From Candidatus Omnitrophota bacterium (GTDB lineage Bacteria > Omnitrophota > Gorgyraeia > Gygaellales > Profunditerraquicolaceae): a DNA stretch of 38,940 bases. Where the stretch lies: assembly GCA_028715415.1 (NCBI GenBank), contig JAQURX010000017.1, forward strand, positions 1-38,940, given 5' to 3'. The notes under the pieces were generated by a model. The model was given only the letters and a program-made list of their open reading frames with translations. It was not told where the DNA came from and made no database searches. Each line of letters opens with the position of its first letter. Positions within the stretch are counted from its first letter, which is position 1. A program made the position numbers and the translations under genes. Below, in pieces: positions 11,740 to 38,940 of this stretch.

Positions 11740-11759
11740 CGCAAGTGCGCATTTACTAT

Positions 11760-11832: not shown

Positions 11833-11852
11833 TTATAAAGATTGAAGGTTAA

Positions 11853-12092: not shown

Positions 12093-12094
12093 GA

Positions 12095-12123
12095 TTGACT
12101 TCCCGCCTGATTTAGGTTAAAAT
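12095..12123 (+). promoter_or_regulatory. Promoter for tRNA-Lys and probably archease-rtcB
   Basis: TTGACT (12095-12100), 17-bp spacer, TAAAAT (12118-12123). Transcription would begin near 12130, about 17 nt before the tRNA. No other promoter-like sequence is evident before the archease gene. Confidence 0.7.
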
Positions 12124-12146
12124 AATACCCTTAATAATTAGATTTC

Positions 12147-12219
12147 GGGCCATTAGCTCAATTGGTGGAGCAGGACACTCTTAATGTCAAGGTCGTTGGT
12201 TCGACTCCAACATGGCCCA
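12147..12219 (+). tRNA. tRNA-Lys (anticodon CUU)
   Basis: Acceptor GGGCCAT (12147-12153) pairs with ATGGCCC (12212-12218). Anticodon loop CTCTTAA gives CUU, and the T-arm is GTTGG-TTCGACT-CCAAC. The first anticodon-stem pair (12173/12189) is G-A, a mismatch. CCA is not encoded; discriminator A at 12219. The archease start codon follows 20 nt later. Confidence 0.93.
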
Positions 12220-12239
12220 CTAAATTTCCCGGGTGTTTA

Positions 12240-12662
12240 GTGGTTGAGAAGGATTTTGAATTAATTGAGCATACCGCAGATGTAGGCATCAGGGTAAAAG
12301 CTAAAGATTTAGTAGGCCTTTTTAGTAAATCAGGACTTGCCTTATTTCAAATCTCTGCAGAGAAACTTCCCGCAAAAGATAAAGAAAAACACAAAATAAT
12401 CGTCGCGCTTAAAGCAAATAATATTGAAGAGTTATTTATTAATTGGCTTAATGAATTATTGTCTTTATCAGCTGTTGAATGTTTAATTTTTGAAGGTTTT
12501 GAGATTAGTAAGGTTGATGAAAATTGTATTGAAGTAGTTGCAATTGGTGTTGATATAAAGAATTATAAAGTAAATACTGAAATTAAAGCTGCGACTTATC
12601 ACGAATTAAAGGTAGAAAAAACGGGTTCAGGTTGGGTAGCTGAGGTTATATTTGATGTCTAG
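12240..12662 (+). CDS. Archease, RtcB cofactor
   Basis: Small metal-binding protein that accelerates guanylylation of the RNA ligase RtcB and allows multiple turnover. 140 residues from GTG at 12240, preceded by GGGTG at 12231-12235. The family signature EHTADVGIRVKAKDL is near the N-terminus, followed by EELFINWLNELL and a C-terminal AATYHELKVEKT. The open frame runs back into tRNA-Lys, but those residues are tRNA sequence. It overlaps rtcB by 8 bp, the usual partnership. Confidence 0.9.
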   Translation: MVEKDFELIEHTADVGIRVKAKDLVGLFSKSGLALFQISAEKLPAKDKEKHKIIVALKANNIEELFINWLNELLSLSAVECLIFEGFEISKVDENCIEVVAIGVDIKNYKVNTEIKAATYHELKVEKTGSGWVAEVIFDV

Positions 12663-14103
12663 TATACAATTAGAAAAGATTGATGATTTCCGATGGCGGA
12701 TTCCGAAAAGTTATAAGCCCGGGATGCGCGTACCGGGGATTATTTATGCCGATGAAAAATTGCTCAAGGATATCTATCAGGATAAAGCGCTTGAGCAGGT
12801 GGCTAATGTAGCGTTCTTGCCGGGGATTGTGAATGCGTCTTTGGCAATGCCGGATATCCACTGGGGTTATGGATTCCCGATTGGTGGGGTTGCGGCAACT
12901 GATATTGAAGAAGGTGGAGTAGTTTCTCCCGGGGGAGTTGGTTTTGATATAAATTGCGGAGTGCGTTTACTTAGGACTAACCTGCAATTTGAAGATATAA
13001 AAGATAAGATTAAAGATTTGGTTTATACTTTGTTTTCAGATGTGCCTGCTGGAGTTGGTTCAAAGGGCGATATAAGAGTAGGCAATAAAGAAGAAAAAGA
13101 AATTTTAGTAAAAGGCTCTAAATGGGCGGTTGCAAAGGGTTACGGAACTCAAGATGATTTGGAATGTACCGAGGAGAATGGCGCAATTACTGGTGCTGAT
13201 CCTGATGCTGTATCTGACAGAGCGTATGAGAGAGGTAAGGCGCAATCGGGAACGCTTGGCTCGGGAAATCATTTTTTAGAGGTTCAAGTAATTGATCAGC
13301 TTTATGACGCAAAGATTTGCGATGAGTTTGGCCTTAATTTAGGACAGGTTATGGTAATGATTCATTCCGGCTCGCGCGGATTAGGTTATCAGGTTTGTGA
13401 AGATTCATTGCGCACGATGGTTAATTGTCTGCATAAATATAATATAAATGTTCCAGATCGCCAGCTAGCCTGTGCGCCGGTAAATTCTCCGGAAGCGCAA
13501 AATTATTTAAACGCAATGCGATGCGCGGCAAATTATGCCTGGGCAAACAGACAGTGTCTCATGCATTTGACTCGTCTTGCTTTTGAAAAAGTCTTCTGTA
13601 TGGGTTGGGAAAAGTTAGGAATGTCTTTAATTTATGATGTGGCACATAATATCGCAAAGATTGAAACTTATAATATAAACGGAAAAGAAAAAAAGCTCTG
13701 CGTTCATCGTAAAGGAGCCACCCGCGCATTTCCTCCGGGGCATCCGGCGTTACCCGATAGGTATAAAAGAACAGGACAGCCTGTAATTATTCCCGGGGAC
13801 ATGGGACGTAATTCATATCTGCTTGTCGGGACAGAAAAAGCAGTAGAAACATTTTATTCTACCTGTCATGGTGCTGGACGCGTTAAATCCCGCACTGCAG
13901 CGACTAAGTCCATAAATTTGAATACACTCTTGAAGGAATTGGAATCTAAGGGTATAATAGTCAAAGCTTCGGGCCGAGGAACAATAGTAGAAGAGGCTCC
14001 GCAGGCATATAAAGATGTAAATGACGTGGTTAACGTGGTGCATAATGCGGGAATTTCCAAGCGCGTCTGCAGAATGCGGCCGGTTGGTGTAATTAAAGGA
14101 TAA
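12655..14103 (+). CDS. rtcB: RNA-splicing ligase RtcB
   Basis: GTP- and manganese-dependent ligase that joins 2',3'-cyclic phosphate or 3'-phosphate ends to 5'-OH ends in RNA repair or tRNA splicing. 482 residues, full length. Metal and catalytic motifs: [15 protein letters not shown] near residue 95, [46 protein letters not shown] and the C-terminal CHGAGR. The ATG at 12655 is preferred to the TTG at 12652. serS follows after 16 bp, so the run archease-rtcB-serS is probably one transcript starting with tRNA-Lys. Confidence 0.95.
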
Positions 14104-14119
14104 AAACTTAAGGAGTTCA

Positions 14120-15397
14120 ATGCTCGATATAAGATTTATTCGTGAAAACGTTGATTTGGTAAAGAAATCATTGCAAGATCGTAATTTAAAAATTGATCTG
14201 GACGGTTTGGTAAGCCTTTATGATTCCAAGCGCCAAGTTTTAGCTGAGCTTGAAGATTTAAGAGCAAAAAGAAATAAGGCAAATGATGAAATAAGTGTTT
14301 TGCTTAAAACAAAGCAGGATGCCAAGCCTAAAATTGAATCAATGAAGGAAATCTCTAGCAAGATTGGTGAATTAGAGAATAAAATTAAAGAAATTGATGT
14401 TGAATTAGGCAGCCAAGTTTTAACTATTCCTAATATCCCACATGCGTCAATTCCCCGTGGAGATCCGACTTGTAACAAGATTGTGCGTTCATGGGGTGAG
14501 CCGCCTAAACTTGGATTTAAGCCTTTAACACATATTGAAATAGCACAGAATTTAGACATTATTGATTTGCCGCGCGCAACAAAAATTACCGGCTCTAACT
14601 GGATATTATATAAGGGCTGGGGTGCGAAATTAGAAAGAGCATTAATTAATTTTATGCTTGATTTTCATACCAGAAAGCACGGGTATACCGAAATCTTCCC
14701 GCCTTTTTTAGTTAATCGTGCTTCCATGACCGGGACAGGGCAGCTTCCAAAATTAGAAGAAGACATGTATCGTTTAAAGGATGACGATTTATTCTTAATT
14801 CCTACAGCTGAAGTTCCGGTAACCAATATTTTCCGCGATGAAGTATTGGAAGAAGAGAAGCTGCCGATTTATTACACTGCCTATACAGCATGTTTTAGAA
14901 GAGAGGCGGGTTCTTACGGCAAAGACACAAAAGGCTTAACCCGTGTGCATCAATTTGATAAAGTTGAGATGGTGAAGTTTGTTAAACCGGAAACTTCTTA
15001 TGATGAATTAGAAAAACTATTAGGAGACGCTGAGGAAATTTTGCAAGCACTCGGGCTTCCTTATCGCGTGCTTATGCTGGCAACACAGGATTTAAGTTTC
15101 TCGGCTAGCAAATGTTATGATTTAGAAGCGTATGCTGCAGGAGTTGATAAATGGCTTGAGGTTTCAAGCTGCAGTAATTTTGAAAGTTTTCAGGCAAGGC
15201 GCGCAAATATAAGATTTAGAAGAAAGGCTGAAGACGGGAAAAAAGTTACCGAATATCTTCATACATTAAATGGTTCAGGAGTAGCTTTAGCGCGCACAGT
15301 GATTGCGATATTAGAAAATTATCAGCAAAAGGACGGCACAATATTAATACCTGAGGTATTAAGGCCGTATATGGATGGCAAGGAAAGAATTTCCTGA
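14120..15397 (+). CDS. serS: Seryl-tRNA synthetase
   Basis: Class II synthetase charging tRNA-Ser. 425 residues: the N-terminal coiled-coil arm that grips the long variable arm of tRNA-Ser (about 28-105), then the catalytic core with motif 2 [20 protein letters not shown] and motif 3 [19 protein letters not shown], ending [17 protein letters not shown] precedes the ATG. Three tRNA-Ser genes follow within 5 kb, an unusual concentration of enzyme and substrates. The last 23 bp overlap the next gene. Confidence 0.96.
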
Positions 15398-16106
15398 GAT
15401 AAAAGGGGACTTTGGCCCGAAGTTTAAGGGCGGAGATTTTGATTTTAAGGATACTAGTTTTAAAGATAAAGTATCTGATAAAGTATCTGAGAAGGTTTCT
15501 ATTTTTTCAAATAAATTCTTCCAGGTTGTCAAATTCCTTTTAGGGATTTGTTTTTTGCCTTTTGTGTATTCATCCACATTAGCATTCTTAAAAGAATTTG
15601 GCCTTATCCAGCATTCGCTTCAGGTTTTGTTTTGGAATGGAGTTATTGCTTTCTTGTTGATTTATCTGTTTATCTGGGAGCCGGCGCAAATTTACACAAG
15701 AGGGCATAAGATAATGGAGCTTTTATTTAACTTCTTTAAGCCGCTGGTTAGGATAGCGCCTAATCTTCTGCCGATTTATTCGTTGTTAGTTTTCTTTTTC
15801 TATACGCTTTTATTTCTAATATATAAAGACCCGAGGATTGTTAATTATTCTGTTTTTCTTTTCGGCTTTACTATTACTTTGCATCTTGTATTTGCTGCTA
15901 AGTCACTTCGCACTAGAAAGGGCGATTTTTTAAAAGGCAATTATATCTTCGGATTTTCATTTATCTGGCTTATTAATTTAATCTTGCTAAGTTTATTCTT
16001 AAATGTTATGTTTAAAGAGTTTTCTTTTATCAATTTCTTTGATAGCGCTTACCTAAAAGCCAGCGGAATTATTTACGCAGTATTTAAGCAGCTTTTCTTA
16101 GGATAA
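15375..16106 (+). CDS. Multi-pass membrane protein, unknown function
   Basis: 243 residues. A charged, Asp/Lys/Phe-rich N-terminus (about 50 residues, with the heptad-like [10 protein letters not shown]) precedes about five hydrophobic segments, from [18 protein letters not shown] to the C-terminal region. I do not recognise a family. The ATG lies inside the serS 3' end and has no clear ribosome site, so translation probably depends on serS. tRNA-Ser(UGA) follows 4 bp after the stop. Confidence 0.7.
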
Positions 16107-16110
16107 ATTT

Positions 16111-16200
16111 GGTGGGGTGGCAGAGCGGTCGAATGCGGCAGTCTTGAAAACTGTTTTGGGCGTAAGCCCAACGTGAGTTCGAATCCCACCCCCACCGCCA
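16111..16200 (+). tRNA. tRNA-Ser (anticodon UGA)
   Basis: 90 nt with acceptor GGTGGGG (16111-16117) / CCCCACC (16190-16196), anticodon loop CTTGAAA, and the long variable arm typical of tRNA-Ser (TTGGGCGTAAGCCCAA). CCA is encoded at 16198-16200. It lies directly upstream of queC. Confidence 0.97.
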
Positions 16201-16215
16201 TTCTTCAAACTTAAT

Positions 16216-16878
16216 ATGAAAAAAGCAGTGATTATCGCCTCCGGAGGCATGGACAGCACAACCTTGCTATACGATATTTTAGATCAAGGTTATGAAGTTT
16301 ATGCTTTAAGTGTCAATTACAGCCAGAGGCATGTTAAAGAATTAAAATTTATTAAGAAAACTTGTGCCAAATTAAAAGTTCCGCATAAGATAATCGATTT
16401 GGCTAAGGTAGGCAAAGAAATTTTGAGCGCAAGTGCACTTACTTCTAAAAACATATTAGTTCCTGAAGGTAATTACAATGGAGAGAATATGAAGCTTACC
16501 ATTGTTCCTAACAGGAATATGATTCTTTTGTCTTTAGCTGTTGGTTACGCGATAACTATCGGTGCAAAAAAAGTTTTTTATGGCGCTCATGCCGGAGACC
16601 ATACGATTTATCCTGATTGCAGAAAAGAATTTGTAGAAGCGATGAAGCGCCCTATCGCTTTGGCAGATTGGGATGTGGTTGAATTAGAGGCGCCTTATTT
16701 GGATTTTGATAAGGGAGATATTGCAATAAAAGGCAAGAGTTTAGGTGTTGATTATTCCCTTACATGGACTTGTTACAAAGGTGGGGCGTTAGCTTGTGGA
16801 AAATGCGGAGCCTGTCAGGAAAGGCTTGAGGCATTCCGCAAGGCAGAAATAATAGATCCAATTAAATATCAGGATTAG
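16216..16878 (+). CDS. queC: 7-cyano-7-deazaguanine synthase QueC
   Basis: Converts 7-carboxy-7-deazaguanine to preQ0, the queuosine precursor, using ATP and ammonia. 220 residues: an ATP-pyrophosphatase P-loop SGGMDSTTLLYDIL near residue 10, the FYGAHAGDHTIYPDCR active-site segment and a C-terminal zinc site with Cys in TCYKG and in CGKCGACQER. No other queuosine gene is nearby. It begins 15 bp after the CCA end of tRNA-Ser(UGA) with no ribosome site, suggesting a shared tRNA-mRNA transcript. Confidence 0.96.
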   Translation: MKKAVIIASGGMDSTTLLYDILDQGYEVYALSVNYSQRHVKELKFIKKTCAKLKVPHKIIDLAKVGKEILSASALTSKNILVPEGNYNGENMKLTIVPNRNMILLSLAVGYAITIGAKKVFYGAHAGDHTIYPDCRKEFVEAMKRPIALADWDVVELEAPYLDFDKGDIAIKGKSLGVDYSLTWTCYKGGALACGKCGACQERLEAFRKAEIIDPIKYQD

Positions 16879-16886
16879 TATTTATT

Positions 16887-16974
16887 GGAGAGTTGGCAGA
16901 GTGGTCGAATGCGGCGGTCTCGAAAACCGTTATCCTGCAAGGGATCGGAGGTTCAAATCCTCCACTCTCCGCCA
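16887..16974 (+). tRNA. tRNA-Ser (anticodon CGA)
   Basis: 88 nt: acceptor GGAGAGT (16887-16893) / ACTCTCC (16964-16970), anticodon loop CTCGAAA closed by GCGGT/ACCGT, long variable arm, T-loop TTCAAAT, and an encoded CCA at 16972-16974. It starts 8 bp after the queC stop. Confidence 0.97.
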
Positions 16975-17046
16975 TGTTTATATACATTGATCAACTAGGT
17001 AGTGTCTCGTGTTTACAAAAGAGAAATTTCGAATATAAAAAACTAA

Positions 17047-17084
17047 AGCCTTCGTTGGCAAAAAGTATGCCGGCGAAGGTTTTA
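17047..17084 (+). terminator. Intrinsic terminator after tRNA-Ser(CGA)
   Basis: CCTTCGTTGGC (17049-17059) pairs with GCCGGCGAAGG (17069-17079) over 11 bp including two G-T pairs. TTTTATTTATT follows, and an eight-T run ends the region near 17100. The A-rich left flank would give a T-tract on the other strand, so it could work in both directions. Confidence 0.8.
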
Positions 17085-17117
17085 TTTATTAATTTTTTTT
17101 AGTATAAGGGGTGGGAT

Positions 17118-17870
17118 ATGGATGGAATAAAAGTTTTGCGCAGCACCCAGATAATTATTCTGGGAATTTGTTTTGTAGTAGCGACAATTACTTCAACTGT
17201 GATTCTCTCGAAAGGGATATTGCAGATGAAGAAATTCTCAGAGCAGGTGATTAAAGTCACCGGTTCAGCTGAGAAGAATATAATCTCTGATGCTATTGTC
17301 TGGAGGCTAAATTTTTCCCGCAGAGAAGTAAAAATGGTGGTTGCTTTTGATTTGTTGAAGGAAGATCTTGAGATAGTAAAAAAATATTTATTTGATAAAG
17401 GCGTTAAAGAAAGCGAGATTATTGTTGCCCCGGTTACGACAACTGTATTATACAAGAAGAATGATAAGGGTAATGATACTAATGTAATAGAAGCTTATAT
17501 TTTAGCCCAAGAGGTAGAAGTTCGGTCAAGTGATGTTTTAAGGATAGCTGAAATTTCTCGGCAGGCAACTGAGCTTATAGAAAATGGGCTTGAGATTATA
17601 TCTCAATCGCCTGAATATTTCTATACTAAGCTTCCCGAACTTAAATTAGAGATGCTTTCTGAGGCATCTGAAAATGCCAAGAAGCGCGCTGAATCAATGG
17701 CTAAGGCTTCCGGCAATAAAATCGGCCGAATACGATCTGCACGCATGGGGGTGTTTCAGATTACACCGGTTAATTCCTTTGATGTTTCAGACTGGGGTTT
17801 AAATGACACGACTTCTTATGAGAAGAAAGTTAATGCTGTGGTAAATGTGGAGTTTGCGATAAGCGATTAA
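17118..17870 (+). CDS. SIMPL (DUF541) domain protein, membrane-anchored
   Basis: 250 residues: an N-terminal membrane segment (about residues 10-33, IIILGICFVVATITSTVIL) then an extracytoplasmic SIMPL domain beginning QVIKVTGSAEKNIISDAIVWRL. Later parts match the family layout (KKRAESMAKASGNKIGRIRS, then KKVNAVVNVEFAI at the end). Family members such as BP26 form ring-like periplasmic oligomers; their cellular function is poorly defined. An AGGGGTGGG ribosome site precedes the ATG. Confidence 0.85.
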   Translation: MDGIKVLRSTQIIILGICFVVATITSTVILSKGILQMKKFSEQVIKVTGSAEKNIISDAIVWRLNFSRREVKMVVAFDLLKEDLEIVKKYLFDKGVKESEIIVAPVTTTVLYKKNDKGNDTNVIEAYILAQEVEVRSSDVLRIAEISRQATELIENGLEIISQSPEYFYTKLPELKLEMLSEASENAKKRAESMAKASGNKIGRIRSARMGVFQITPVNSFDVSDWGLNDTTSYEKKVNAVVNVEFAISD

Positions 17871-17914
17871 GCAGTGGAATTCTTGAATTCCTTGTTATCA
17901 TTTTGGTCAAATTT

Positions 17915-17923
17915 TGTTATAAT
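17915..17923 (+). promoter_or_regulatory. Extended -10 promoter for the Cache-domain gene
   Basis: TGTTATAAT at 17915-17923 is a perfect extended -10 (TG-n-TATAAT) with no good -35. It is followed by AAAGGAGG about 20 nt later and the ATG at 17954. Confidence 0.6.
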
Positions 17924-17953
17924 GTAGAGCGAATAAATTAAAAGGAGGAAGGC

Positions 17954-18805
17954 ATGAAGAAACTGGTTGTGTTAGTTTTAGGAATCATGGTGTTCACTGC
18001 CTCAAATGTATTTGCCGCCGCTGACATTGGTAATATTATGCCGGTTCTTGAAAACGTTAAGCAGTCCATTAATTCTACTTTTGTGGAAATAGACCAAGAT
18101 CTAAGTGCTGCAGCAAAAGATTTGTCTGCTACTGATTTAAAAGGAGACGCCGCGCGAAAGATTTTAAATAATTTGCGTAAATTCCGTCCATATGTCGTTG
18201 ATTGTTCTATTGTTGATGTAAATGGTATAAAAATTACCGTTGAACCCGCAGAATACAAGAAATATGAGGGCACTGATAGAAGCGATTTGCCTTCAGTTAT
18301 TTCTCTTTTAAAGGCAAAGAAACCTGAAATGAGCGATGTCTATCATGCCTCTGAAGGTATGCATGCAATAAATATAGGATACCCGATATTTTCTGAGAAG
18401 AACGGCGAATTATTAGGTGCGGTAAGGATGTTAATAAGATATGAAGATTTTTTAAAACCGCTTGTTGAGGACCAACCTTGCAAGATATGGGTAATGCAGA
18501 AGAATGGACTTCTTGTATACGATGCAGATCCCGAAGAAATCGGGAAGAATATATTTTCTGATAGTATGTTTAAGCCTTTTGAAGATTTGGTTGAGTTTTC
18601 CAAGACCGTTGCCTTGAAGAAGGATGGCGCCGGTTCGTATGATTTTTACGCTGATGGGCTCAAAGACAAAGCTCTTGTTCAAAAAATTGCGGCTTGGGAT
18701 ACTGTTTCACTATATGGGACAGAGTGGCGCGTGGTAGCGATGGAGATAGGAAGGACGCTTGCACAGCCTAAGGCTTCGGAGGCAGTTCCGGCGGCAGAGA
18801 AATAA
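17954..18805 (+). CDS. Secreted Cache-domain protein
   Basis: 283 residues with a Sec signal peptide (cleavage after FAA, about residue 23). The mature part looks like a ligand-binding Cache sensor domain: a long N-terminal helix (VKQSINSTFVEIDQDLSAAAKDLS), the VVDCSIVDVNGIKI strand region, INIGYPIFSEKNGELLGAVRMLI, then CKIWVMQKNGLLVYDADPEE as in membrane-distal Cache modules. Unlike chemoreceptors it has no C-terminal transmembrane or signalling segment, ending in an Ala/Pro tail, so it is probably a free periplasmic binding protein. The ligand is unknown. Confidence 0.7.
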   Translation: MKKLVVLVLGIMVFTASNVFAAADIGNIMPVLENVKQSINSTFVEIDQDLSAAAKDLSATDLKGDAARKILNNLRKFRPYVVDCSIVDVNGIKITVEPAEYKKYEGTDRSDLPSVISLLKAKKPEMSDVYHASEGMHAINIGYPIFSEKNGELLGAVRMLIRYEDFLKPLVEDQPCKIWVMQKNGLLVYDADPEEIGKNIFSDSMFKPFEDLVEFSKTVALKKDGAGSYDFYADGLKDKALVQKIAAWDTVSLYGTEWRVVAMEIGRTLAQPKASEAVPAAEK

Positions 18806-18833
18806 TAGCACTAAGGCATAGGCGTTTTTAAGT

Positions 18834-18862
18834 TTGTCTATTTTAAGGCGATGTGTTATACT
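18834..18862 (+). promoter_or_regulatory. Promoter for tRNA-Ser(GGA)
   Basis: TTGTCT (18834-18839), 17-bp spacer, TATACT (18857-18862). It lies upstream of the partial tRNA copy, so the transcript would include that copy before the intact tRNA at 18991. Confidence 0.55.
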
Positions 18863-18876
18863 TATTCGTTTTGAGT

Positions 18877-18981
18877 ATAAATTTTGGAGAGGTGCCGGAG
18901 CGACCGAGCGAAGCTCTGCGGAGCGAGGAAGTCCCTGGAGCGAGCGGATGCGAGCGAAAGGGACGGTCGAACGGTTAATAC
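18877..18981 (+). repeat. Tandem partial duplication of the tRNA-Ser 5' end, disrupted by a palindrome
   Basis: Bases 18877-18902 are identical to 18982-19007 (26 bp: the flank ATAAATTTT plus the first tRNA bases). The first copy is interrupted after GCCGGAGC by about 63 bp (18902-18964) and resumes with GGTCGAACGG at 18965-18974, the same ten bases as tRNA positions 19007-19016. It is therefore a 26-nt tRNA 5' fragment split by an insertion and sitting between promoter and tRNA. Confidence 0.85.
18901..18969. repeat. GC-rich palindromic element inside the tRNA fragment
   Basis: CGACCG (18901-18906) pairs with CGGTCG (18964-18969). Inside are a GCTC-TGCG-GAGC hairpin (18913-18924) and TCCCT (18932-18936) paired with AGGGA (18959-18963). 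The segment could fold as a three-way junction and is much more GC-rich than its surroundings, resembling a small non-coding palindromic insertion. Confidence 0.7.
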
Positions 18982-18990
18982 ATAAATTTT

Positions 18991-19075
18991 GGAGAGGTGC
19001 CGGAGCGGTCGAACGGGCATGTCTGGAGAACATGTGAGCCGCAAGGTTCCCAGGGTTCGAATCCCTGCCTCTCCG
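18991..19075 (+). tRNA. tRNA-Ser (anticodon GGA)
   Basis: 85 nt: acceptor GGAGAGG (18991-18997) / CCTCTCC (19068-19074), anticodon loop CTGGAGA, long variable arm and T-loop TTCGAAT. CCA is not encoded, unlike the other two tRNA-Ser genes; a T-run follows directly. Confidence 0.96.
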
Positions 19076-19101
19076 TTTTTAATAATTAGTAATGGAGTCT
19101 T

Positions 19102-24253: not shown

Positions 24254-25507
24254 ATGTTTAAGAATCATTTAAGAAATGTTTGTTTTGGTATTATTTTAAG
24301 TTTTTGTTTTGCAAGTTCTGTATTAGCTTATGATCCAAGTAGCGATATTAAATTAGAAGCAGATTATATTCTTTCTTGTCAATTTAATAATTCAAGTAAT
24401 GATGCATACGGAGCAATAAACAATGTTTTTGGAAATCCTACTTGGGTTGTCCCGGGAGAAAATGCTGTTGCAATAATGGGATTAAGCACAGCTTCTAAGG
24501 TTTTAAATGACCCGGTTTATGTTAATAAAGCTAATTTGGCTGCAGATTATTTAGTGCGTGTGCAGGATAATGATGGGGCTTGGTTTGATCAATATGATTA
24601 TGCAAATTCTGTGAGCGGTGCGGGTAAATCTTTGCGGCATACTGCAGAAGTTGTGATGGCATTTGACAAATTAGGCTTTAATGCGGCAAGGTATGATTCA
24701 ATAAAAAAAGCTTCGCAATTTATAATTGACTGTCAAAACCCAATCAATAAAGGTGGAATTGATGATGGTTTAGTTGGAGGAGGCAAAGAGGCTGATGGGA
24801 GTTATCGCTCTTGGCGCTGGACGTCAGATAATGCCTATGCTTACCAAGCCTTAAAAACAGCAGCTAATTGGGCCCAGCAGAGCGGGGACCATGCTGATGC
24901 AGCTAATTTTAATAATGCTGCAAGCAGAGTTTTAGACGGTATAAATAATAAATTGGCTGCTTCTGGTAATCATTGGGTAAGAGTTGTGGATTCTTCAGGA
25001 AATGTTGTTTCGTCGGAAGATAGGAGCGATTGGATTAGCTATGCGCCTTTAATGTTAGATTTGCCAGTGCAAGGAGTGAATCCTTCAGATGCAGGTGATT
25101 GGATTCATAATAATTTACAAAAACTTGATGGTGCAGTGGTTTGGGATGATGCAAGCTTTTCAGAAAGAAAATCTCCCGGGTATTCATTTCAGGCAATGCT
25201 TGTTTGGTTAGATACAGCACAGTCTGGCTATTCGGATGTAGCTCTTAATTGGGCGGAGAATAGTGGTTTATGGCAGAAAGTTGTTGATTCTAACGGAGTA
25301 GTAGGCGGTTGGGTTGATTGGGTTGAGCAAGGAAATAAACCCGATGATTGGCAGAGGTTTATTGATACAAGCGCTTATTATATTATGGTAAAAAATGGCG
25401 GATATGATTTTAAGCCAACTGTTACACCCGAGCCAGTATCAATGTTCCTGTTTGGCATCGGGGGCCTAGCAATGGCAGTATTAAAGATAAAGAATAAAAA
25501 GGTGTAG
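24254..25507 (+). CDS. PEP-CTERM surface protein with an alpha/alpha-toroid-like domain
   Basis: 417 residues: Sec signal peptide (cleavage after VLA near residue 25), then a helical repeat domain with Trp- and Gly-rich turns (DGAWFDQYDYANSV, SYRSWRWTSDNAYAYQAL) resembling six-barrel toroids of glycoside hydrolases, lyases and terpenoid cyclases. The C-terminal sorting signal is PEPVSMFLFGIGG plus a hydrophobic helix and KIKNKKV. PEP-CTERM tails are cut by an exosortase, tying the protein to exopolysaccharide or the cell surface; no exosortase lies in this window. Polysaccharide degradation is possible but unproven. Confidence 0.85.
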   Translation: MFKNHLRNVCFGIILSFCFASSVLAYDPSSDIKLEADYILSCQFNNSSNDAYGAINNVFGNPTWVVPGENAVAIMGLSTASKVLNDPVYVNKANLAADYLVRVQDNDGAWFDQYDYANSVSGAGKSLRHTAEVVMAFDKLGFNAARYDSIKKASQFIIDCQNPINKGGIDDGLVGGGKEADGSYRSWRWTSDNAYAYQALKTAANWAQQSGDHADAANFNNAASRVLDGINNKLAASGNHWVRVVDSSGNVVSSEDRSDWISYAPLMLDLPVQGVNPSDAGDWIHNNLQKLDGAVVWDDASFSERKSPGYSFQAMLVWLDTAQSGYSDVALNWAENSGLWQKVVDSNGVVGGWVDWVEQGNKPDDWQRFIDTSAYYIMVKNGGYDFKPTVTPEPVSMFLFGIGGLAMAVLKIKNKKV

Positions 25508-31230: not shown

Positions 31231-32016
31231 ATGGCGTTAGATGAAATAAAGATTTCCCGGGCGATTATCGAGTCTTATAGTAAAAAGCTTGTTAAAGCTT
31301 TGGATGTTGATGTGGCGATAGTAGGAGGAGGGCCGGCGGGTATGGTTTGCGGGTATTATTTGGCACAAGCCGGGAAAAGCGTTGTTTTATTTGAAAGAAA
31401 ACTTTCAATTGGCGGCGGAATGTGGGGCGGCGGAATAATGTTTAATGAAATAGTTGTCCAGGAATCTGCTAAGAAAATACTAGATGTATTTGAAATTAAG
31501 ACAAAGAAGTATGAAGAAAATTATTATTTAGCGGATTCTATAGAAACAGTTTCTACAATTTGTTCAAAGGCAGTTAAAGCAGGATTAAAGATTTTTAATT
31601 TGTTAAGCGCCGAGGATGTGATGATCCGGGGGAAAAAAGTTTGCGGGTTAGTCTTGAATTGGACTTCTGTTGAAATGGCTAATTTGCATGTTGATCCGAT
31701 TACAATGCGCTCAAAATTCGTAGTGGATGCAACAGGACACCCTGCTGAAGTAGCGAGGATTATTGAGAGAAAATCTGGAATCCGCCTTAAAACAAAAACA
31801 GGAAAACTTATGGGAGAGCAGTCAATGTGGGCGGAAGTCGGCGAAGAGACAATCGTAAAGAATTCAAAAGAAGTCTGCCCGGGTTTTTATGTTTGTGGAA
31901 TGTGTGCTAACGCTGTCTTTGGAGGCCCGCGAATGGGGCCGATTTTTGGCGGGATGTTGTTATCCGGAGAAAAAGTTGCGAAAGAGCTGCTCAAGCAAAT
32001 AGTTCATTCTAGATAA
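31231..32016 (+). CDS. thi4: Thiazole synthase Thi4 (sulfide-dependent type)
   Basis: Makes the thiazole phosphate half of thiamine from NAD and glycine. 261 residues: FAD/NAD-binding VGGGPAG at residues 32-37, [12 protein letters not shown], and the C-terminal [20 protein letters not shown]. In yeast Thi4 the sulfur comes from an active-site Cys; here the equivalent segment is ANLHVDPIT with His153, as in methanogen Thi4 enzymes that use free sulfide catalytically. That fits an anoxic, sulfide-containing habitat. AAGGAGG precedes the ATG; expression is under the TPP riboswitch. Confidence 0.93.
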
Positions 32017-32451: not shown

Positions 32452-33267
32452 ATGAAGAAATTGTTTGGTTTGGTAGCCTTATTGGCTATGGTTTTAAGTT
32501 TTTCAAGTGTTTATGCAGATGTTGACTTGTGGGGGGATTACACAGGTCCAGTAACACTAAAGTTTTCAGGATTTACAAATGGGACTATCTATAGCCCAAC
32601 TTCTGCTCCTAATTTTGATACAATAGAAGATGGCTGGGGTGTTGGTCGCGTAACTAGTGTTTCCGAAGGATTCTCGGGTTCTGGAAATCCTTTATGGGCT
32701 TTTGGTCCAACCAGTACATCCGAAGTCACTTATTACTATCATGATATTGTTGATTATGCTGTTGGTGATTTACCGGGTCAGATTCTTTCAAAAGGCGGTG
32801 TTTTTGATTTTTATTTGAATCCGGCTGGTAGCTTTAATAATATTAATGCTGCTGATCGTGCAACAGGTTTTACTCAAATTACCGGCGGAACTCCTCTTAT
32901 GAGAGCTTTCTTAGTACCTGGTATTCTTTTTCCTGATGATACTACAACTACTATTGAGCAAAGCTTGTTTCCTGTTAATGGAGGCGGTGTAATGGGTAAT
33001 GGAACCGCACTTGCTGCAATTGATCTTACAGGTGTTTGGGATACTGCTTTAGCAAGAGCAATTAACAGCAATGTATTTGCGAATAATGCTGATTTAAGAC
33101 TTGGTTTTACTATTAGTCCTAACACTGCAGATAATGGTTTTATGCTTGTTCATAATGATCCTGCGAATGCTGTTGTTACTCCCGAACCAATTAGCTCTGC
33201 TTTATTCTTATTAGGCGGCGCTGCATTAGTTGGTGGTAGATTAAAAAAGAAAAATCGTAAGGCATAA
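32452..33267 (+). CDS. PEP-CTERM surface protein, beta-rich, probably highly expressed
   Basis: 271 residues: signal peptide cleaved after VYA (about residue 22), a Gly/Asn/Thr/Ser-rich beta domain (about 23-240) without a recognised fold, and a C-terminal sorting signal PEPISSALFLLGGAALVGG followed by RLKKKNRKA. Exosortase processing and surface or exopolysaccharide association are expected from the tail. Two near-perfect promoters, a good AGGAGG and a strong terminator make an abundant product likely. It may be a structural surface protein; the sequence does not say which. Confidence 0.85.
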   Translation: MKKLFGLVALLAMVLSFSSVYADVDLWGDYTGPVTLKFSGFTNGTIYSPTSAPNFDTIEDGWGVGRVTSVSEGFSGSGNPLWAFGPTSTSEVTYYYHDIVDYAVGDLPGQILSKGGVFDFYLNPAGSFNNINAADRATGFTQITGGTPLMRAFLVPGILFPDDTTTTIEQSLFPVNGGGVMGNGTALAAIDLTGVWDTALARAINSNVFANNADLRLGFTISPNTADNGFMLVHNDPANAVVTPEPISSALFLLGGAALVGGRLKKKNRKA

Positions 33268-33286: not shown

Positions 33287-33326
33287 AATTAGGGACAGCC
33301 CTTAAAAGCTGTCCCTAATTTTTTTG
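33287..33326. terminator. Bidirectional intrinsic terminator between convergent genes
   Basis: AATTAGGGACAGC (33287-33299) pairs with GCTGTCCCTAATT (33308-33320), 13 bp, followed by T residues on the + strand. On the - strand the hairpin is followed by TGTATTTTTT, so it can also end the operon coming from the right. Confidence 0.88.
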
Positions 33327-33337
33327 TCTAAATTAAT

Positions 33338-34501
33338 TTAGAAGTAGAGTTTGGCTTGAGTATAGAAGAGGTTCTGGTAGTCTCCAAATTCACTTTGCTG
33401 GCTCCCCCAGAAGATTTGCGCGCCTATACATAAATCAAGATTGGTTGTTGCGTTGCAGCGTATTTCAGGGTTATAAAAACCGCTCCCTTTTTCCAAATCA
33501 AAGATAAAATAATTCGCTATCTTTGTAATTCCGGTAAGTTCATATTCCGCTCCGACAGATAAAAGATTCTTAAACATGCTTAATACTTGTTCTGAATAAA
33601 CAAATGAACTAAAGAATTGTTCAGGGTTATCCTGCGCCCCGCCATTATAAAAATATTCAGCAACAGTATAAAGTTTTGGATTAAAGTTGTGGTCTATTCC
33701 TAAGTTTACCCGGGCAAAATCTCTTTGTGTATCATCGCGTGTTGCAGTAATCTCTCCGCGAAATCCTGCTTGTTTAAGGTTTCCGTCAAAGTAAACCCCG
33801 AAAGTCCTTTCTTTTCTGTATTCTGCGGCAATAAATCCTAAGTCGTAATCCTTAATCCTTTCAGAAATTTTTACTCCCCAGCCGTTTCTGCTTCGGTTTT
33901 TGTAAGGCACATAAAGTAAATTTATAGAAGGTAGGCCTGCAGGAAAAAATTCTGTATTAAGCGCATCAACTCCGACTTGTTCATCCTTTTCTATATCAAG
34001 CGGAGAGACAGGATTAAAGATATCAAGGGTATGGTAAAAACGCATGCGCGACCAGTCAATTGCCTGCTTACCGGCGGTTACATGCATTTTATCACTCGTG
34101 TATTTTACGTATCCTCTGTAAAGCAGATGTTCCCAGTAGAAATGATCTTTGTCGCTTATTACTCTGTCTGCATCTAAGAAAGCAAGATTCTTCTGGTTCT
34201 TTTGCCTGATTAAATCAAAATCCGGGGTTTTTGAGAAATCGTTAAAGATCATGTTGTTATCATAAATAAAATGAAAGAGCAGGTTATCGCTGGGTTTGTA
34301 TTTTGCATCCAAGCGTAGGCGGTTAGTGTCAGAATAGTAACCTTGTTTTGTGTCTAAAGTTTTGGAAGTTGTGAAGATGTTTTTGTAGTATCCGCCCAAA
34401 GAGAATTCTTTTGTTTCAAAAAGTGAGGCTTGCGCAATATTGCAGCTTAAGAAGAGAAAAACTAGAAGGGAAAGGTAAGTTTTATTGAATTTTGCCATCA
34501 T
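33338..34501 (-). CDS. Outer-membrane beta-barrel protein, porin-like
   Basis: 387 residues: signal peptide (about 1-25, AQA then SLF) and alternating amphipathic strands throughout (for example LLFHFIYDNNMIF), ending in Phe (AKLYF), the outer-membrane barrel signature. The layout resembles DUF1302-type or alginate-export-type barrels, though I cannot name the family. It starts 20 bp inside the ATPase gene; an alternative ATG is one codon later. As the last gene of the LolA/ABC operon it could be the outer-membrane exit or the recipient of the transported substrate. Confidence 0.75.
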   Translation of the reverse strand: MMAKFNKTYLSLLVFLFLSCNIAQASLFETKEFSLGGYYKNIFTTSKTLDTKQGYYSDTNRLRLDAKYKPSDNLLFHFIYDNNMIFNDFSKTPDFDLIRQKNQKNLAFLDADRVISDKDHFYWEHLLYRGYVKYTSDKMHVTAGKQAIDWSRMRFYHTLDIFNPVSPLDIEKDEQVGVDALNTEFFPAGLPSINLLYVPYKNRSRNGWGVKISERIKDYDLGFIAAEYRKERTFGVYFDGNLKQAGFRGEITATRDDTQRDFARVNLGIDHNFNPKLYTVAEYFYNGGAQDNPEQFFSSFVYSEQVLSMFKNLLSVGAEYELTGITKIANYFIFDLEKGSGFYNPEIRCNATTNLDLCIGAQIFWGSQQSEFGDYQNLFYTQAKLYF

Positions 34502-35156
34502 GCAGATGATAGACTGTGTCAGCTTTATCCATTACAAGCTGGTCGTGAGTTGAGAAGAGGAATGTGATTTTGTGTTCACGATTAAGCCGGTGCATAAGTT
34601 CAATAAGCTCTCCGGCAGTAACGGAGTCAAGGTTTGCCGTTGGCTCATCAGCTAAAATCAGAGAGGGGGTAGTAGCAAGTGCGCGGGCAACTGCAACACG
34701 CTGTTGCTGTCCTCCGCTAAGTTGATTGGGATGTTTGTGCCGTAAGTCAGCAATATTTAATTCGGAAAGCAGGCTGATTGCTTTTGCCTGCCTTACTTTT
34801 GGTGAAACTCCTTGAAGCAATAATACATATTCAATATTTTCTTGTGCAGTAAGCTGATGAAAGAGATTATAGGCCTGAAAAACAAAGCCTATTTCTTTAA
34901 GGCGGAACTGGTAGAGTTTTTTAAGTGGGATATTGGTGATTTCAGTTCCATTAAAAATAATCGATCCGCTGGTTGGTGCGTCGAGGGCTCCGATTAGATT
35001 AAGCAAAGTAGTTTTTCCTGAGCCGGAAGGGCCTGCCAAGGTAGCAAAGTCGCCTTTTTTAAGCGTTAAATCAATTCCGCGCAAAGCCTCGGTAGTTACG
35101 CCTGTTTTTTCAACGTAATGTTTTGTTAGGGATTTAACTTCAACTAAATTTTGCAT
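34482..35156 (-). CDS. ABC transporter ATPase, LolD/MacB type
   Basis: 224 residues: Walker A GPSGSGKTTLLNLIG near residue 40, Q-loop FVFQAYNLFHQLTAQENI, signature LSGGQQQRVAVARAL near residue 143, Walker B LILADEPTANLD and the H-loop in FSTHDQ. This is the LolD/FtsE/MacB subgroup, which drives mechanotransmission permeases rather than classic substrate translocation. The partner permease gene ends 2 bp upstream. Confidence 0.93.
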   Translation of the reverse strand: MQNLVEVKSLTKHYVEKTGVTTEALRGIDLTLKKGDFATLAGPSGSGKTTLLNLIGALDAPTSGSIIFNGTEITNIPLKKLYQFRLKEIGFVFQAYNLFHQLTAQENIEYVLLLQGVSPKVRQAKAISLLSELNIADLRHKHPNQLSGGQQQRVAVARALATTPSLILADEPTANLDSVTAGELIELMHRLNREHKITFLFSTHDQLVMDKADTVYHLHDGKIQ

Positions 35157-35158
35157 AA

Positions 35159-36379
35159 TTATATGTGGTAAATTGCTTCTACCGGTTTTAAATTTGCAGC
35201 TCTGTATGCCGGATAAATGGAAACAATTATACTTGTTATTAATACTGTTGCGCCGTATTGCAGTAAGAATCCGGGCGCTAAGCGGGTATAAATAATTGAG
35301 CCGGTGTAATAGCTGTTAAGCGCAGTTGAAAACATAGATAAATCAATTCCGCGTGAGCCAAAATATATTATAGAAATAATCCCGATAAAATATCCGGTTG
35401 CAACCCCAATTAAGCCTAAGAGAAGGGACTCAAGGCCTACCATTTGCATTATTAAATTTGGTTTTGTCCCTAACGCAAGCATAATACCGAATTCGCGCGT
35501 GCGTTCAAGAATACCCATAAGAAGTGTATTTAAAATTCCCGCTGCTACTACTAAAAGCACGATAAGAAGGATAATATTAATGAAGGCAACATCAAATTCA
35601 ACCCATTGAATTACAATTGGGGAGATTTCCTGCCAAGGGAGGACTTCAAGTTCGTTATTATTAAGGTTTGTTTTGATTGTATTTGCAATTTCTTTGGCTT
35701 TCTCAACGTTATTTAAGCGAAGAGCAATTTCTGAAATGCGGCCGTCCATTACAAAAAGCTCTTGGGCTGCCTTAAGGGTGATAAGCGCAAAGCCCTTATC
35801 AATTTCATCGGCTCCAGTATCAAGAAACCCGCTGATACGATAAACCCCGCTGGCAAGGCTTCCGTCAAATCCCTGCCCCATAATTACAATCTTATCGTTA
35901 AGTTGGGCTTTAAGAATTGCTGCTAAGGATTTTCCAATAACAATTTCATTATCATTCGTGAGAAATTTTCCTGTTTTGATTCGTGTATTTAGTTTGGTAA
36001 CTTTAGGTTCGTTTTGCGGGTCAACTCCTATAAGCAGGGCTCCTGTTGAGCCTTCTGTTGAACTTAAAAGGACTGATTCTTTGATACGCGAGGAGGTTGT
36101 GATTACTCCTGTGGTATTTTTCAGAGTTTCGCTTAAGGAATTGTCTTGAGCTAAATTTTTTACAAGGCTCATATTAGCATGAAAACCTTTTTTATGGATT
36201 TGAATGTGCCCGCTTGCAAGGTCAGTATAATTTTCAATCATCTGGTAATGTGAGCCATCTACAAAAGCACGGACAAAGAGGAGGCTGGCAAAGCCAATTG
36301 CAATGGCAGAGATTGTGATGAATGAGCGGTATTTATTGCGGGTAATATTACGCCAAGCTATTGTGAAGAGTAATGGCAT
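35159..36379 (-). CDS. ABC permease, LolC/LolE-FtsX family
   Basis: 406 residues with the family plan: one N-terminal helix (RSFITISAIAIGFASLLFVRA), a large periplasmic domain (about 45-265) and three C-terminal helices (IILLIVLLVVAAGIL, the GLIGVATGYFIGI region and the ATVLITSIIVSIYPA region), with the FtsX-type segment LERTREFGIMLALGTKP between them. Members extract lipoproteins or move hydrophobic molecules from the inner membrane. Its start overlaps the LolA-like stop by one base. Only one permease gene is present, so a homodimer is likely. Confidence 0.9.
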   Translation of the reverse strand: MPLLFTIAWRNITRNKYRSFITISAIAIGFASLLFVRAFVDGSHYQMIENYTDLASGHIQIHKKGFHANMSLVKNLAQDNSLSETLKNTTGVITTSSRIKESVLLSSTEGSTGALLIGVDPQNEPKVTKLNTRIKTGKFLTNDNEIVIGKSLAAILKAQLNDKIVIMGQGFDGSLASGVYRISGFLDTGADEIDKGFALITLKAAQELFVMDGRISEIALRLNNVEKAKEIANTIKTNLNNNELEVLPWQEISPIVIQWVEFDVAFINIILLIVLLVVAAGILNTLLMGILERTREFGIMLALGTKPNLIMQMVGLESLLLGLIGVATGYFIGIISIIYFGSRGIDLSMFSTALNSYYTGSIIYTRLAPGFLLQYGATVLITSIIVSIYPAYRAANLKPVEAIYHI

Positions 36380-37146
36380 TATCGTTTTAAGTTGGCTAAA
36401 CTGAAAACTTCTTCTTTTACAGGTTTATTGTAAGTTACATCTATTACTTCAATTACTGTGGAGTTATTCTCTTTTACTAAAGAACGCATGGTCCAGGTTG
36501 TTGGAATTACGCGGTCAGACATTTTTTTCGGGTTTGTGTATTCTAATGTTTTAATGAGTTTACCGCGTTCATCATAAAACTCTTCTCTAAGCGGCATAAA
36601 ACCGTCTTTTTTTACCCAGAAAATAAGCATTCCCCACGTAACTGCAGCTTCCGGTTTGGGGGTAAGTTTAATCTTATAAGCAGGCTCGTTGTTAATTGTT
36701 TCTTCGTTTATGATTTCGTGAGTATAATCGTTTACGACGCTGCTTTCTTTGACTAAATCATCGTTAGTAAAGTCGCTTCCCATCCATGATTGCAGCATCA
36801 TTGAGGGAGGGATTTTGATCGTGCGTTCAACTTTTGGCAGGTAATTCCACATATTGCTGTCAATGCGCAAAGTTGTAATTCCTGCTTCTTTAACTGGAGA
36901 TTTGATGCGGATGAAAGATTTATTCCTGTCTTTTGAGATTGCATCAAGCTCTAAGACTCTGGTCCAGTTGGCAGTCGTGACAGTCATTTTATAACTGCCG
37001 CTAGAAGTATCCCCTCGCAAAAGGTCATCTCCTTGTTTAATCATATCTTTAGCAGAAGTTTCTGCAAAGCATACGGAGGCAGAGAGGAGGAGGAAAGATA
37101 AGAATAAACTTAAAGCTGACTTAGGCGTAGCTAAATTTTCTTTCAT
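36379..37146 (-). CDS. LolA-like outer-membrane lipoprotein-sorting family protein
   Basis: 255 residues from ATG (complement of 37144-37146); the TTG two codons earlier is less likely. A signal peptide (about 10-30, SVCFAETS) precedes a half-barrel LolA/LolB-like domain of the COG2834 / LolA_like type: FIRIKSPVKEAGITTLRID, NMWNYLPKVERTIKIPPSMM, WMGSDFTNDDLV. Such proteins carry a hydrophobic ligand across the periplasm. In an operon with LolC/E- and LolD-type subunits and an adenylate-forming ligase, it is probably a dedicated shuttle rather than housekeeping LolA. It overlaps the ligase gene by 26 bp. Confidence 0.85.
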   Translation of the reverse strand: MKENLATPKSALSLFLSFLLLSASVCFAETSAKDMIKQGDDLLRGDTSSGSYKMTVTTANWTRVLELDAISKDRNKSFIRIKSPVKEAGITTLRIDSNMWNYLPKVERTIKIPPSMMLQSWMGSDFTNDDLVKESSVVNDYTHEIINEETINNEPAYKIKLTPKPEAAVTWGMLIFWVKKDGFMPLREEFYDERGKLIKTLEYTNPKKMSDRVIPTTWTMRSLVKENNSTVIEVIDVTYNKPVKEEVFSLANLKR

Positions 37147-38554
37147 AATCAACTTCCATAAAATAAGGAAAAGTGTTGTAAGTGTAAAAGATAATATTTA
37201 GAGGTGCTTCGGAGTAGCGGCGCATTGCCACAGCCATTTTTTCTTTAACAATATCATTTAGTTGTTTCCCTTTCCTCAGTTGGATAAAAATATTTATGTG
37301 TGAATCTTGAGGAATAAGCTTGAAGGCTCCGGTAACTTGTGAGGCAAGTTCAAAATCAGAATAAATTGCCTCTTTTACTTCTTCAGGGAAAAGTGAGATG
37401 CCACCAACTTTGACATTTTGTCCACGGCCAAAGATAGAAATAAGGGGGAGCTTTAATTCAGGCATTAAGGCTTGTAGTCCAAGAGAGGAGAGGATTGATT
37501 TAAGTTTGTTGTAAGGAATAATTTTTCCCAAGTCCCCGGTTTTGTAACGCAACAACGGAATTTTCATTTGTTTGCTGAGCATTGAAATAACGATGTGATT
37601 TTGGCCAAACTCGGCAGGTATTTCTTCAATATAGGTGCGATGTGGGTAATAAACAAAAAGCATAGGGCAGACTAAAGTGCCTTTGCCGAAAAGCGCTTCG
37701 CGGAATTGCTGGTTAGTGTGAGCTAACCTGCGCAGTGCCATTGTGTTTTTTGTTTCATGAAAGATATTTAAGTCAAGTTCGGCAACCCCCATTGAAGAGC
37801 CGATAATCCCCGGGCTTTGCGGGTTATTCAAGTCTATGCCCATAAGATGCGCGATATAATTACGGTAATTTTCCGCAATTCCTTCTTCTCCGGTAATAAG
37901 GCTAAAACAGCCTTTCTTCCAGTTAATTCCTTGGTAATCCGCGCCGTCTTCAATAATTTTTTTAAGAAAGGAGCCTTCGCCGACAAGAACTGTTTGTTCA
38001 AAAAGATGAGAGAATTTCTTGATTACTGCCCAGACCATGTCTTCTCGGGTGCTGGTTTCCGCAATGGTAAGGCTGGTATTTACTTTTACCCCCATAGGCA
38101 GGCAGTTTATCAGTAAAGATTTTTTTTTGTCTATGTTAAAGGTGTAATTAAGCCCAAAGTCAATTGATTTGCTTGAAGTTTTAAGGTTTTCATTTGTGTT
38201 AACCCCGAATGAGAATATTCCTGAGTGTCCGGAACTCGTTAGCAGAGACTTAACGTTATTAAAATTCCCATCAAGGCATAAGTCAAGAATCTCATTTTCC
38301 TGAAAAGTGTTTACTTTGTCTAAGAAAGGGGCGTTTGCGATAAAACTTTTAATATCTTTGATGGAGGCTGGGTTAATTTGTTTTACGGCAAGTAATTTGC
38401 TATATGCAGGGGAGCGAATTGCTGCTCTTTGGAAGGTTGCAAGAACGTTTTTTTCGCTAAATCTTAAAAGTGATTCAGGGTCAGTTGATTTAAGAAGGTT
38501 TATAAGTTTCTTTCTTTTGTATTTTTCCAATTGCGTGGATAAATAACTAAGCAT
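37121..38554 (-). CDS. PaaK-like adenylate-forming ligase
   Basis: 477 residues from ATG (complement of 38552-38554). An upstream TTG at 38599 would lie before the promoter, so I exclude it. ANL-superfamily motifs: the phosphate loop LLTSSGHSGIFSFG near residue 105, RYKTGDLGKI and the hinge/C-terminal GRGQNVKVGGISLFPEEV. It resembles phenylacetate-CoA ligase (PaaK) and LuxE-like acyl-protein synthetases, so it activates a carboxylic acid as an AMP ester; substrate and acceptor (CoA or a carrier) are unknown. It is the first gene of the LolA/ABC/barrel operon. Confidence 0.8.
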   Translation of the reverse strand: MLSYLSTQLEKYKRKKLINLLKSTDPESLLRFSEKNVLATFQRAAIRSPAYSKLLAVKQINPASIKDIKSFIANAPFLDKVNTFQENEILDLCLDGNFNNVKSLLTSSGHSGIFSFGVNTNENLKTSSKSIDFGLNYTFNIDKKKSLLINCLPMGVKVNTSLTIAETSTREDMVWAVIKKFSHLFEQTVLVGEGSFLKKIIEDGADYQGINWKKGCFSLITGEEGIAENYRNYIAHLMGIDLNNPQSPGIIGSSMGVAELDLNIFHETKNTMALRRLAHTNQQFREALFGKGTLVCPMLFVYYPHRTYIEEIPAEFGQNHIVISMLSKQMKIPLLRYKTGDLGKIIPYNKLKSILSSLGLQALMPELKLPLISIFGRGQNVKVGGISLFPEEVKEAIYSDFELASQVTGAFKLIPQDSHINIFIQLRKGKQLNDIVKEKMAVAMRRYSEAPLNIIFYTYNTFPYFMEVDYERKFSYA

Positions 38555-38560
38555 AGGCTT

Positions 38561-38589
38561 ATTATAAAGGTATAATTTGATTCCGTCAA
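38561..38589 (-). promoter_or_regulatory. Consensus promoter of the - strand operon, leaderless geometry
   Basis: On the - strand TTGACG (38589-38584), 17-bp spacer, TATAAT (38566-38561). The ATG at 38554-38552 lies 6 nt after the -10 box, exactly where transcription should begin, and there is no ribosome site. Confidence 0.75.
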
Positions 38590-38634
38590 GAATTAGCAAT
38601 CAGATTGCATGTATTCTTCTTGCTGTGAGCCTTC

Positions 38635-38871
38635 TAAATGAATCTGCCGTCTTTTCTCGCTCAAGGTAGATTTTGCCCCTTCGGGGCCGCCAAAGGTTTT
38701 TCGCATTTCGGTGGCTGCTGAACTCGCGCCTCGTGTTCTCACTCGGCGCTCGAACAGCATCGCCATCCCGATATTGCCGCGCCCTATCGGTCGCGGCATC
38801 GGGATTCCCTCAATGCTCAAGCTGCTTTGGCTAAAATCTACATTCGCTCGAAAAGCCGACAGATTCATTTA
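38635..38871. repeat. Long imperfect inverted repeat with internal hairpins
   Basis: Bases 38635-38677 match the reverse complement of 38829-38871 at most positions (shared cores TAAATGAATCTG and GTAGATTTT). Inside are GCCCC-TTC-GGGGC (38675-38687) and ATCCCGAT...GCCGCG (38765-38781) paired with CGCGGC-ATCGGGAT (38792-38805). It is clearly more GC-rich than the flanks. A 91-codon frame on the - strand (38868-38593) spans it, but its ends are the two repeat arms, so I treat it as non-coding. The 38600-38634 stretch holds nothing I can identify. Confidence 0.7.
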
Positions 38872-38940
38872 ATAGTAAGTGTTTCAGCGGATGCCTTGGC
38901 TTGGTTCGCAGCAGGGCTTCCGGAAATTCGAGCGGGCATG
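38872..38940 (+). rRNA. Possible 5' end of 23S rRNA (partial, divergent after the first 35 bases)
   Basis: AGTAAGTGTTTCAGC followed by GGATGCCTTGGC (38889-38900) matches the start of bacterial 23S rRNA, where TAAG lies about 10 nt before GGATGCCTTGGC. The conserved GATGAAGGACG expected about 12 nt later is absent in the remaining 40 bases. Either an intervening sequence is inserted or this is a 23S fragment. No 16S rRNA or tRNA precedes it. Confidence 0.35.

Follow-up and report, generated by a model that had tools for sequence, protein, structure and literature searches.

The operon and its encoded proteins

The 38,940-nt stretch of Candidatus Omnitrophota DNA analysed here, referred to in full as the window and belonging to genome G000, contains an operon of five minus-strand genes at 33338-38554. 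A first-pass annotation had proposed that these encode an adenylate-forming ligase, a LolA-like carrier, a LolC/E-like permease, an ATP-binding cassette (ABC) ATPase and an outer-membrane barrel. All five are present, together with the predicted elements that bound them (aa, amino acids):

38561..38589, minus strand: sigma-70-like promoter, TTGACG-17-TATAAT, 11 of 12 positions (sequence scan)
37121..38554, minus strand: PaaK-family adenylate-forming ligase (LIG), 477 aa (profile, fold and motifs)
36379..37146, minus strand: LolA-like periplasmic carrier (PF17131), 255 aa (PF17131, 5e-59)
35159..36379, minus strand: LolC/E-like permease of the MacB/FtsX superfamily, 406 aa, the single permease gene (PF02687 and PF12704)
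34482..35156, minus strand: LolD/DevA-like ABC ATPase, 224 aa (PF00005, 1.4e-35)
33338..34501, minus strand: outer-membrane beta-barrel, 387 aa, with a signal-like segment at the N-terminus (AlphaFold2 barrel)
33287..33320, minus strand: terminator-like hairpin of 15 pairs, T-rich on both strands, between the operon and a convergent PEP-CTERM gene

The layout originally described also holds in its details. From the ligase onwards, the junctions comprise a 26-bp overlap (37146 on 37121), a 1-bp overlap (36379), a 2-bp gap and a 20-bp overlap, behind one near-consensus promoter and ahead of the strong hairpin with its T tail. We placed the ligase start at the ATG at 38554, with which the starts of homologues align; the earliest in-frame TTG (38599) was passed over, since it precedes the promoter-like site. 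The -10 box ends only 6 nt ahead of this ATG, which suggests that the message may be leaderless.

The ligase was without any Pfam match. A profile of 21 homologues recovered PaaK (4r1l, 2e-14) and LuxE (9e-4) from the PDB, and the AlphaFold2 model (predicted local distance difference test, pLDDT, 90) was matched by foldseek to PaaK1 with ATP at a template modelling (TM) score of 0.78. The PaaK fold spans the full length of the protein (2y27; TM 0.70 by query and 0.78 by target, E 1e-19). Adenylation motifs are present in the family (P-loop SSG..G, RY.T.D and a C-terminal Lys): SSG (107-109), RY (336-337) and K473 are invariant among the 21 homologues, with G112 and D341 nearly so. As the ligase scores 15 bits against the curated phenylacetate-CoA ligase model TIGR02155, for which the cut-off is 646, it is a distant relative of PaaK.

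The carrier matches PF17131 (LolA_like) at 199 bits, against a gathering cut-off of 30, and its profile recovers 3buu (1.6e-53), the solved 'LolA superfamily protein NE2245' of Nitrosomonas europaea, a species listed with PEP-CTERM proteins and EpsH (PMC1569441). The permease combines FtsX and MacB_PCD domains and is nearest to LolF/LolE in the PDB (about 6e-21 to 1e-18); at about 150 bits it fails the LolC/E equivalog TIGR02212 (cut-off 362). The ATPase scores about 207 bits against each of TIGR02982 and TIGR02211, under both cut-offs. For the barrel, the PF13505 match is weak and under cut-off, and no sequence relatives were found in the PDB. AlphaFold2 confidently predicts a beta-barrel (pLDDT 87) for which foldseek ranked generic porins highest, along with the alginate exporter AlgE (TM 0.45-0.59).

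Co-occurrence with an N-acyl-amino-acid synthase

The distribution of the ligase indicates what the operon belongs to. Among 384 genomes of this uncultured phylum, the ligase family (counted at E below 1e-45) occurs in 19, and the exosortase-associated N-acyl-amino-acid synthase (NAS) TIGR03694 likewise exceeds its cut-off in 19, of which 18 are ligase genomes. The counts for both, one only, the other only and neither are therefore 18, 1, 1 and 364 (Fisher 1e-28, in a test that ignores relatedness; the 18 genomes span 8 families). The two exceptions are G236 and G109; in the latter the ligase is present but the synthase match is only weak.

This association extends to gene neighbourhoods. The genes for the LolA-like carrier, permease, ATPase, barrel and ligase recur with one or two copies of a gene for an acyltransferase of ~240 aa and a gene for a protein of ~900 aa, the latter consisting of an AMP-binding ligase, a carrier domain and a PlsC-type acyltransferase. 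The first-pass annotation had proposed looking for carrier proteins or synthases near homologous operons; in 11 loci all five genes stand together beside NAS and such proteins with AMP-binding, acyl carrier protein (ACP) and PlsC domains. In a further locus (L082) the five genes and an exosortase lie at a contig end, while L086 is truncated by one. Catalytic motifs are conserved in NAS (EISRL) and ACP (DSL), as in the ligase.

Linkage to the Lol-type genes, the absence of which the first-pass annotation had named as evidence against its reading, thus holds in these 11 loci and fails in four (L078, L080, L084 and L087), where ligase and NAS occur without Lol genes nearby. Conversely, Lol genes are found without the ligase in L125, L033, Vibrio L129 and Persicobacter L130. 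Because each set occurs without the other, the five genes represent two modules that have been joined. In Vibrio campbellii (L129:8926-14173) and Persicobacter (L130:8965-14085) the export module comprises a LolA-like gene, two permease genes, an ATPase gene and a barrel gene, with no ligase, NAS or exosortase near it.

That the window itself contains no synthase was correctly stated at first pass; yet G000 encodes one elsewhere, on contig C11 (TIGR03694, 178 bits, cut-off 112). It is fused in one frame to an AMP-ligase and an ACP domain, an arrangement suggesting that the acyl ligase likely loads the carrier for the synthase. In most of the 18 genomes with both ligase and NAS, the synthase adjoins the operon. 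Upstream of the ligase start the window contig (C17) continues for ~390 bp and ends within a dispersed repeat:

38608-38940: dispersed repeat, which recurs elsewhere in the genome as ~7 long copies (79-97% identity) and a dozen fragments

We considered joining C17 to C11 and rejected it: the two contigs have just 45 bp of this repeat in common, placed on C11 upstream of the synthase gene; the repeat has ~20 matches in the genome, and a tmk-like gene precedes the synthase. No junction is therefore claimed.

None of the 57 close relatives searched yielded the ligase. A tree of the ligase places the window sequence together with genomes from two other families (support 95/97), a pattern that either horizontal transfer or patchy loss could produce. 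A single pattern scan of GTDB contigs for close relatives returned nothing useful, and matches from plasmid collections, in Gemmatirosa and Nonomuraea, have 25% identity and no NAS alongside.

Exosortase association and variant loci

Exosortase is a protein-sorting enzyme, and G000 possesses one (TIGR02602, 133 bits, cut-off 105.6) on contig C5, with four PEP-CTERM genes close by. Further PEP-CTERM genes occur on C3, and two lie in the window:

32452..33267, plus strand: PEP-CTERM protein, 271 aa, convergent neighbour of the operon, C-terminus TPEPISSALFLLGGAALVGGRLKKKNRKA
24254-25507: second PEP-CTERM protein, 17 bits (cut-off 16)

The first of these scores under cut-off with both models (TIGR02595, 15.1 bits against 16; PF07589, 13.9 bits against 20.7); judging by its C-terminus, it is a likely exosortase substrate. 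Homologous operons are likewise flanked by PEP-CTERM genes. The second gene has a TPR gene upstream, with HD-domain and glycosyltransferase genes downstream. Elsewhere in the window, five tRNA genes (Arg, Lys and three Ser isoacceptors) are dispersed among protein genes over 7 kb at 11759-19076, and a seemingly single gene at 31231-32016 encodes a Thi4-family sulfide-dependent ADP-thiazole synthase (TIGR00292, 321 bits).

Exosortase and PEP-CTERM genes occur within about 15 kb in seven ligase loci. More generally, an exosortase lies <=20 kb from PF17131 in 17 genomes against 1.6 expected, an expectation that assumes random placement and average genome sizes and is to be read as an order of magnitude only. 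Ten of these 17 are without TIGR03694. Their loci mostly carry a FeeM-type synthase (PF21926), often with the AMP-ligase/ACP/PlsC protein, PF17131 and a barrel, and their exporter is either of the resistance-nodulation-division (RND) or of the ABC type. A synthase of either type stands at a distance of 0.3-7.8 kb from PF17131 in 28 genomes, where the same rough model would predict about 0.9.

In the FeeM-type loci the position of the ligase is held by a ThiF-family enzyme or a B12-type radical SAM protein. ThiF is also present in L070, L076 and L125; the last is the sole locus in which a TIGR03694 synthase accompanies the Lol module in the absence of the ligase, and there ThiF adjoins the barrel gene. 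Two parts are interchangeable across the more distant loci, which retain synthase, LolA-like carrier and barrel: the exporter, which may be ABC or RND, and the enzyme acting on the carboxylate, which may be the ligase, ThiF or a radical SAM protein. A nitroreductase-family oxidase accompanies ThiF only in L136-L138, and beside LIG-type loci no match to this superfamily of flavin-dependent oxidases was found. ThiF was not found in G000, in a search with one query and no positive control.

Two groups of variant loci may be described further. L131, L132, L133, L134, L135 and L140 are exosortase loci with a FeeM-type synthase and/or ThiF, a LolA-like carrier and a barrel, the exporter being RND in five. 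PilZ-domain genes adjoin the FeeM synthase genes in this group, which suggests control of FeeM-type loci by cyclic di-GMP. In L033, L035 and L139, a gene for a B12-type radical SAM protein of ~600 aa directly precedes the ABC genes, in exosortase/PEP-CTERM surroundings.

Proposed pathway

We hold with moderate confidence that the operon belongs to a dedicated pathway for the synthesis and export of an acyl-amino-acid lipid, tied to the exosortase system. Firstly, the acyl ligase would charge the carrier domain with a fatty acid, which the NAS domain would pass to an amino acid; in G000 all three domains belong to the one protein on C11. Secondly, adenylation of that N-acyl-amino acid at its free carboxylate by the PaaK-like ligase would lead to an ester, an amide or a cyclic compound. 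The permease and ATPase would then extract this product out of the inner membrane and pass it to the LolA-like carrier, and the carrier would bring it on to the barrel and outer membrane. Taken as a whole, the pathway would serve exosortase-dependent surface assembly. Gene content, co-occurrence, linkage, folds and motifs are the basis of this proposal, in which the product's structure, the direction of transport, the transfer to carrier and barrel and the function at the surface of the cell are inferred only.

The second step has a precedent. In the tyz, oxz and trz pathways a ThiF enzyme activates the carboxylate of an N-acyl-amino acid with ATP and then cyclises it, the ThiF-type TyzB and TrzS both acting on such carboxylates (PMC10404671, PMC12856293). 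Because ThiF also holds the ligase slot in L125, the PaaK-like ligase is, by analogy, probably an alternative carboxylate activator in ThiF's role. As to the purpose, a NAS mutant of the methanotroph Methylomonas sp. LW13, a strain that also has exosortase, lacks its polysaccharide band (PMC11072679), which shows that synthases of this kind are important in assembling the surface.

Several observations weigh against this proposal. No exosortase was detected in four of the 18 genomes with both ligase and NAS, and in four loci the ligase and NAS have no Lol genes nearby. The presence of both ligase and ThiF in L070 and L076 leaves their exact equivalence unproven, and sequence alone reveals no substrate. 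The synthase and operon of G000 lie on separate contigs. Finally, the genomes compared are related and the random models rough.

In a more specific version, exosortase would use the exported lipid as acceptor or anchor, linking it to the new C-terminus of a PEP-CTERM protein, and the LolA-like carrier, ABC or RND exporter and barrel would convey either this lipid or the protein bearing it to the outer membrane. This extension is speculative and we think it rather doubtful, as a synthase of either type was detected in only 41 of 125 exosortase genomes.

Alternative explanations

The main rival for the role of the ligase is that it activates a fatty or aromatic acid feeding the synthase, as a LuxE/PaaK-like supplier of precursors, rather than the finished N-acyl-amino acid. 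PaaK and LuxE relatives act on aryl and fatty acids, and PaaK is the nearest fold. However, the NAS partner protein has an AMP-ligase and ACP of its own, fused to NAS in G000, and the slot of the ligase in L125 is occupied by an enzyme whose known substrates are N-acyl-amino-acid carboxylates. We therefore regard precursor supply as unlikely, if still deserving of serious attention.

Doubts of another kind concern lipoprotein sorting. The resemblance of permease and ATPase to LolF/LolE and LolD/DevA would be expected of a second or main sorting system in which the ligase is an incidental passenger, and since G000 yielded no canonical LolA (PF03548), the window carrier, which matches PF17131 only, could be its sole LolA. 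A separate LolC/E homologue on contig C8 nevertheless scores 355 bits, against about 150 for the window permease, and adjoins a LolD-like ATPase; the possibility that G000 lacks a second lolCDE, which the first-pass annotation had raised against itself, does not hold. PF17131 is moreover wholly missing in 39 of 58 genomes of close relatives and so is not required for general lipoprotein sorting, while the module tracks NAS and exosortase rather than lipoproteins. On the strength of the better LolC/E homologue and this absence we rejected the operon as the housekeeping lolCDE, and consider a sorting role in any form improbable. The original view of a dedicated route for an acylated product is upheld by the same comparison; it overlooked the synthase, the connection with exosortase and PEP-CTERM, and the modular make-up.

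It is very improbable that the Lol-type genes form an importer or a MacB-like antimicrobial efflux pump, linked to the exosortase region only as another cell-surface locus: the permease is of the MacB/FtsX superfamily, and the module stands without NAS or exosortase in Vibrio and Persicobacter, but the locus has no MacA or TolC homologue, and carrier and barrel are kept where an RND exporter replaces the ABC pair, again beside NAS or FeeM. Export of an aryl-polyene or flexirubin pigment, whose systems combine an AMP ligase with LolA and an exporter, was dismissed: the FlxY match was weak and no ketosynthases, dehydratases or pigment genes occurred among those of the locus proteins that were scanned.

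Comparison with known systems and significance

A link between NAS and exosortases is already known (Craig et al. 2011, as cited in PMC11072679 and PMC7293339). Those loci share the TIGR03694 family and the exosortase/PEP-CTERM neighbourhood with the ones described here, to which an export arm (ABC or RND exporter, LolA-like carrier and barrel) and the PaaK-like ligase are now added; our literature search found no paper that joins exosortase to either LolA-like carriers or the export module. The acyl-oxazolone clusters tyzABC, oxzAB and trzAS (tyrazolone and tryptazolone) similarly pair NAS with an ATP-dependent carboxylate-activating enzyme (PMC10404671, PMC12856293), ThiF standing where the clade of the window has the PaaK-like ligase. 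The tyz cluster adjoins an MmpL-type gene, mmpL9, for which an exporter role is only suspected (PMC10404671); this fits the RND versions among the homologous loci.

With LolCDE-LolA sorting the operon shares the superfamilies of permease, ATPase and periplasmic carrier and, by analogy, probably the mechanics of lift and hand-over. It differs in having PF17131 rather than PF03548, a single permease far under the LolC/E cut-off, a barrel rather than LolB, and a ligase. The ornithine-lipid system OlsB/OlsA (PMC11631085) resembles most homologous loci in combining a PF13444 N-acyltransferase with a PlsC-type acyltransferase (PF01553), whereas here the former is TIGR03694 instead of OlsB and PlsC is fused to AMP-ligase/ACP, the G000 fusion being without PlsC. 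The Vibrio campbellii and Persicobacter export module is alike in content and order except for its two permease genes; the window operon has one, and a ligase.

The attachment partner of exosortase and the surface route of PEP-CTERM proteins have been open questions since 2006 (PMC1569441) and are still stated as inferred (PMC11980579). NAS was known to occur near exosortases, but its role and the fate of its product lacked an explanation. The present analysis names a concrete set of partners for it, namely a carboxylate-activating enzyme, an inner-membrane exporter, a periplasmic LolA-like carrier and an outer-membrane barrel, and gives an uncharacterised ligase family a specific functional prediction. 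Were the anchor version of the proposal true, the system would parallel the Lol lipoprotein pathway, but at the protein C-terminus.

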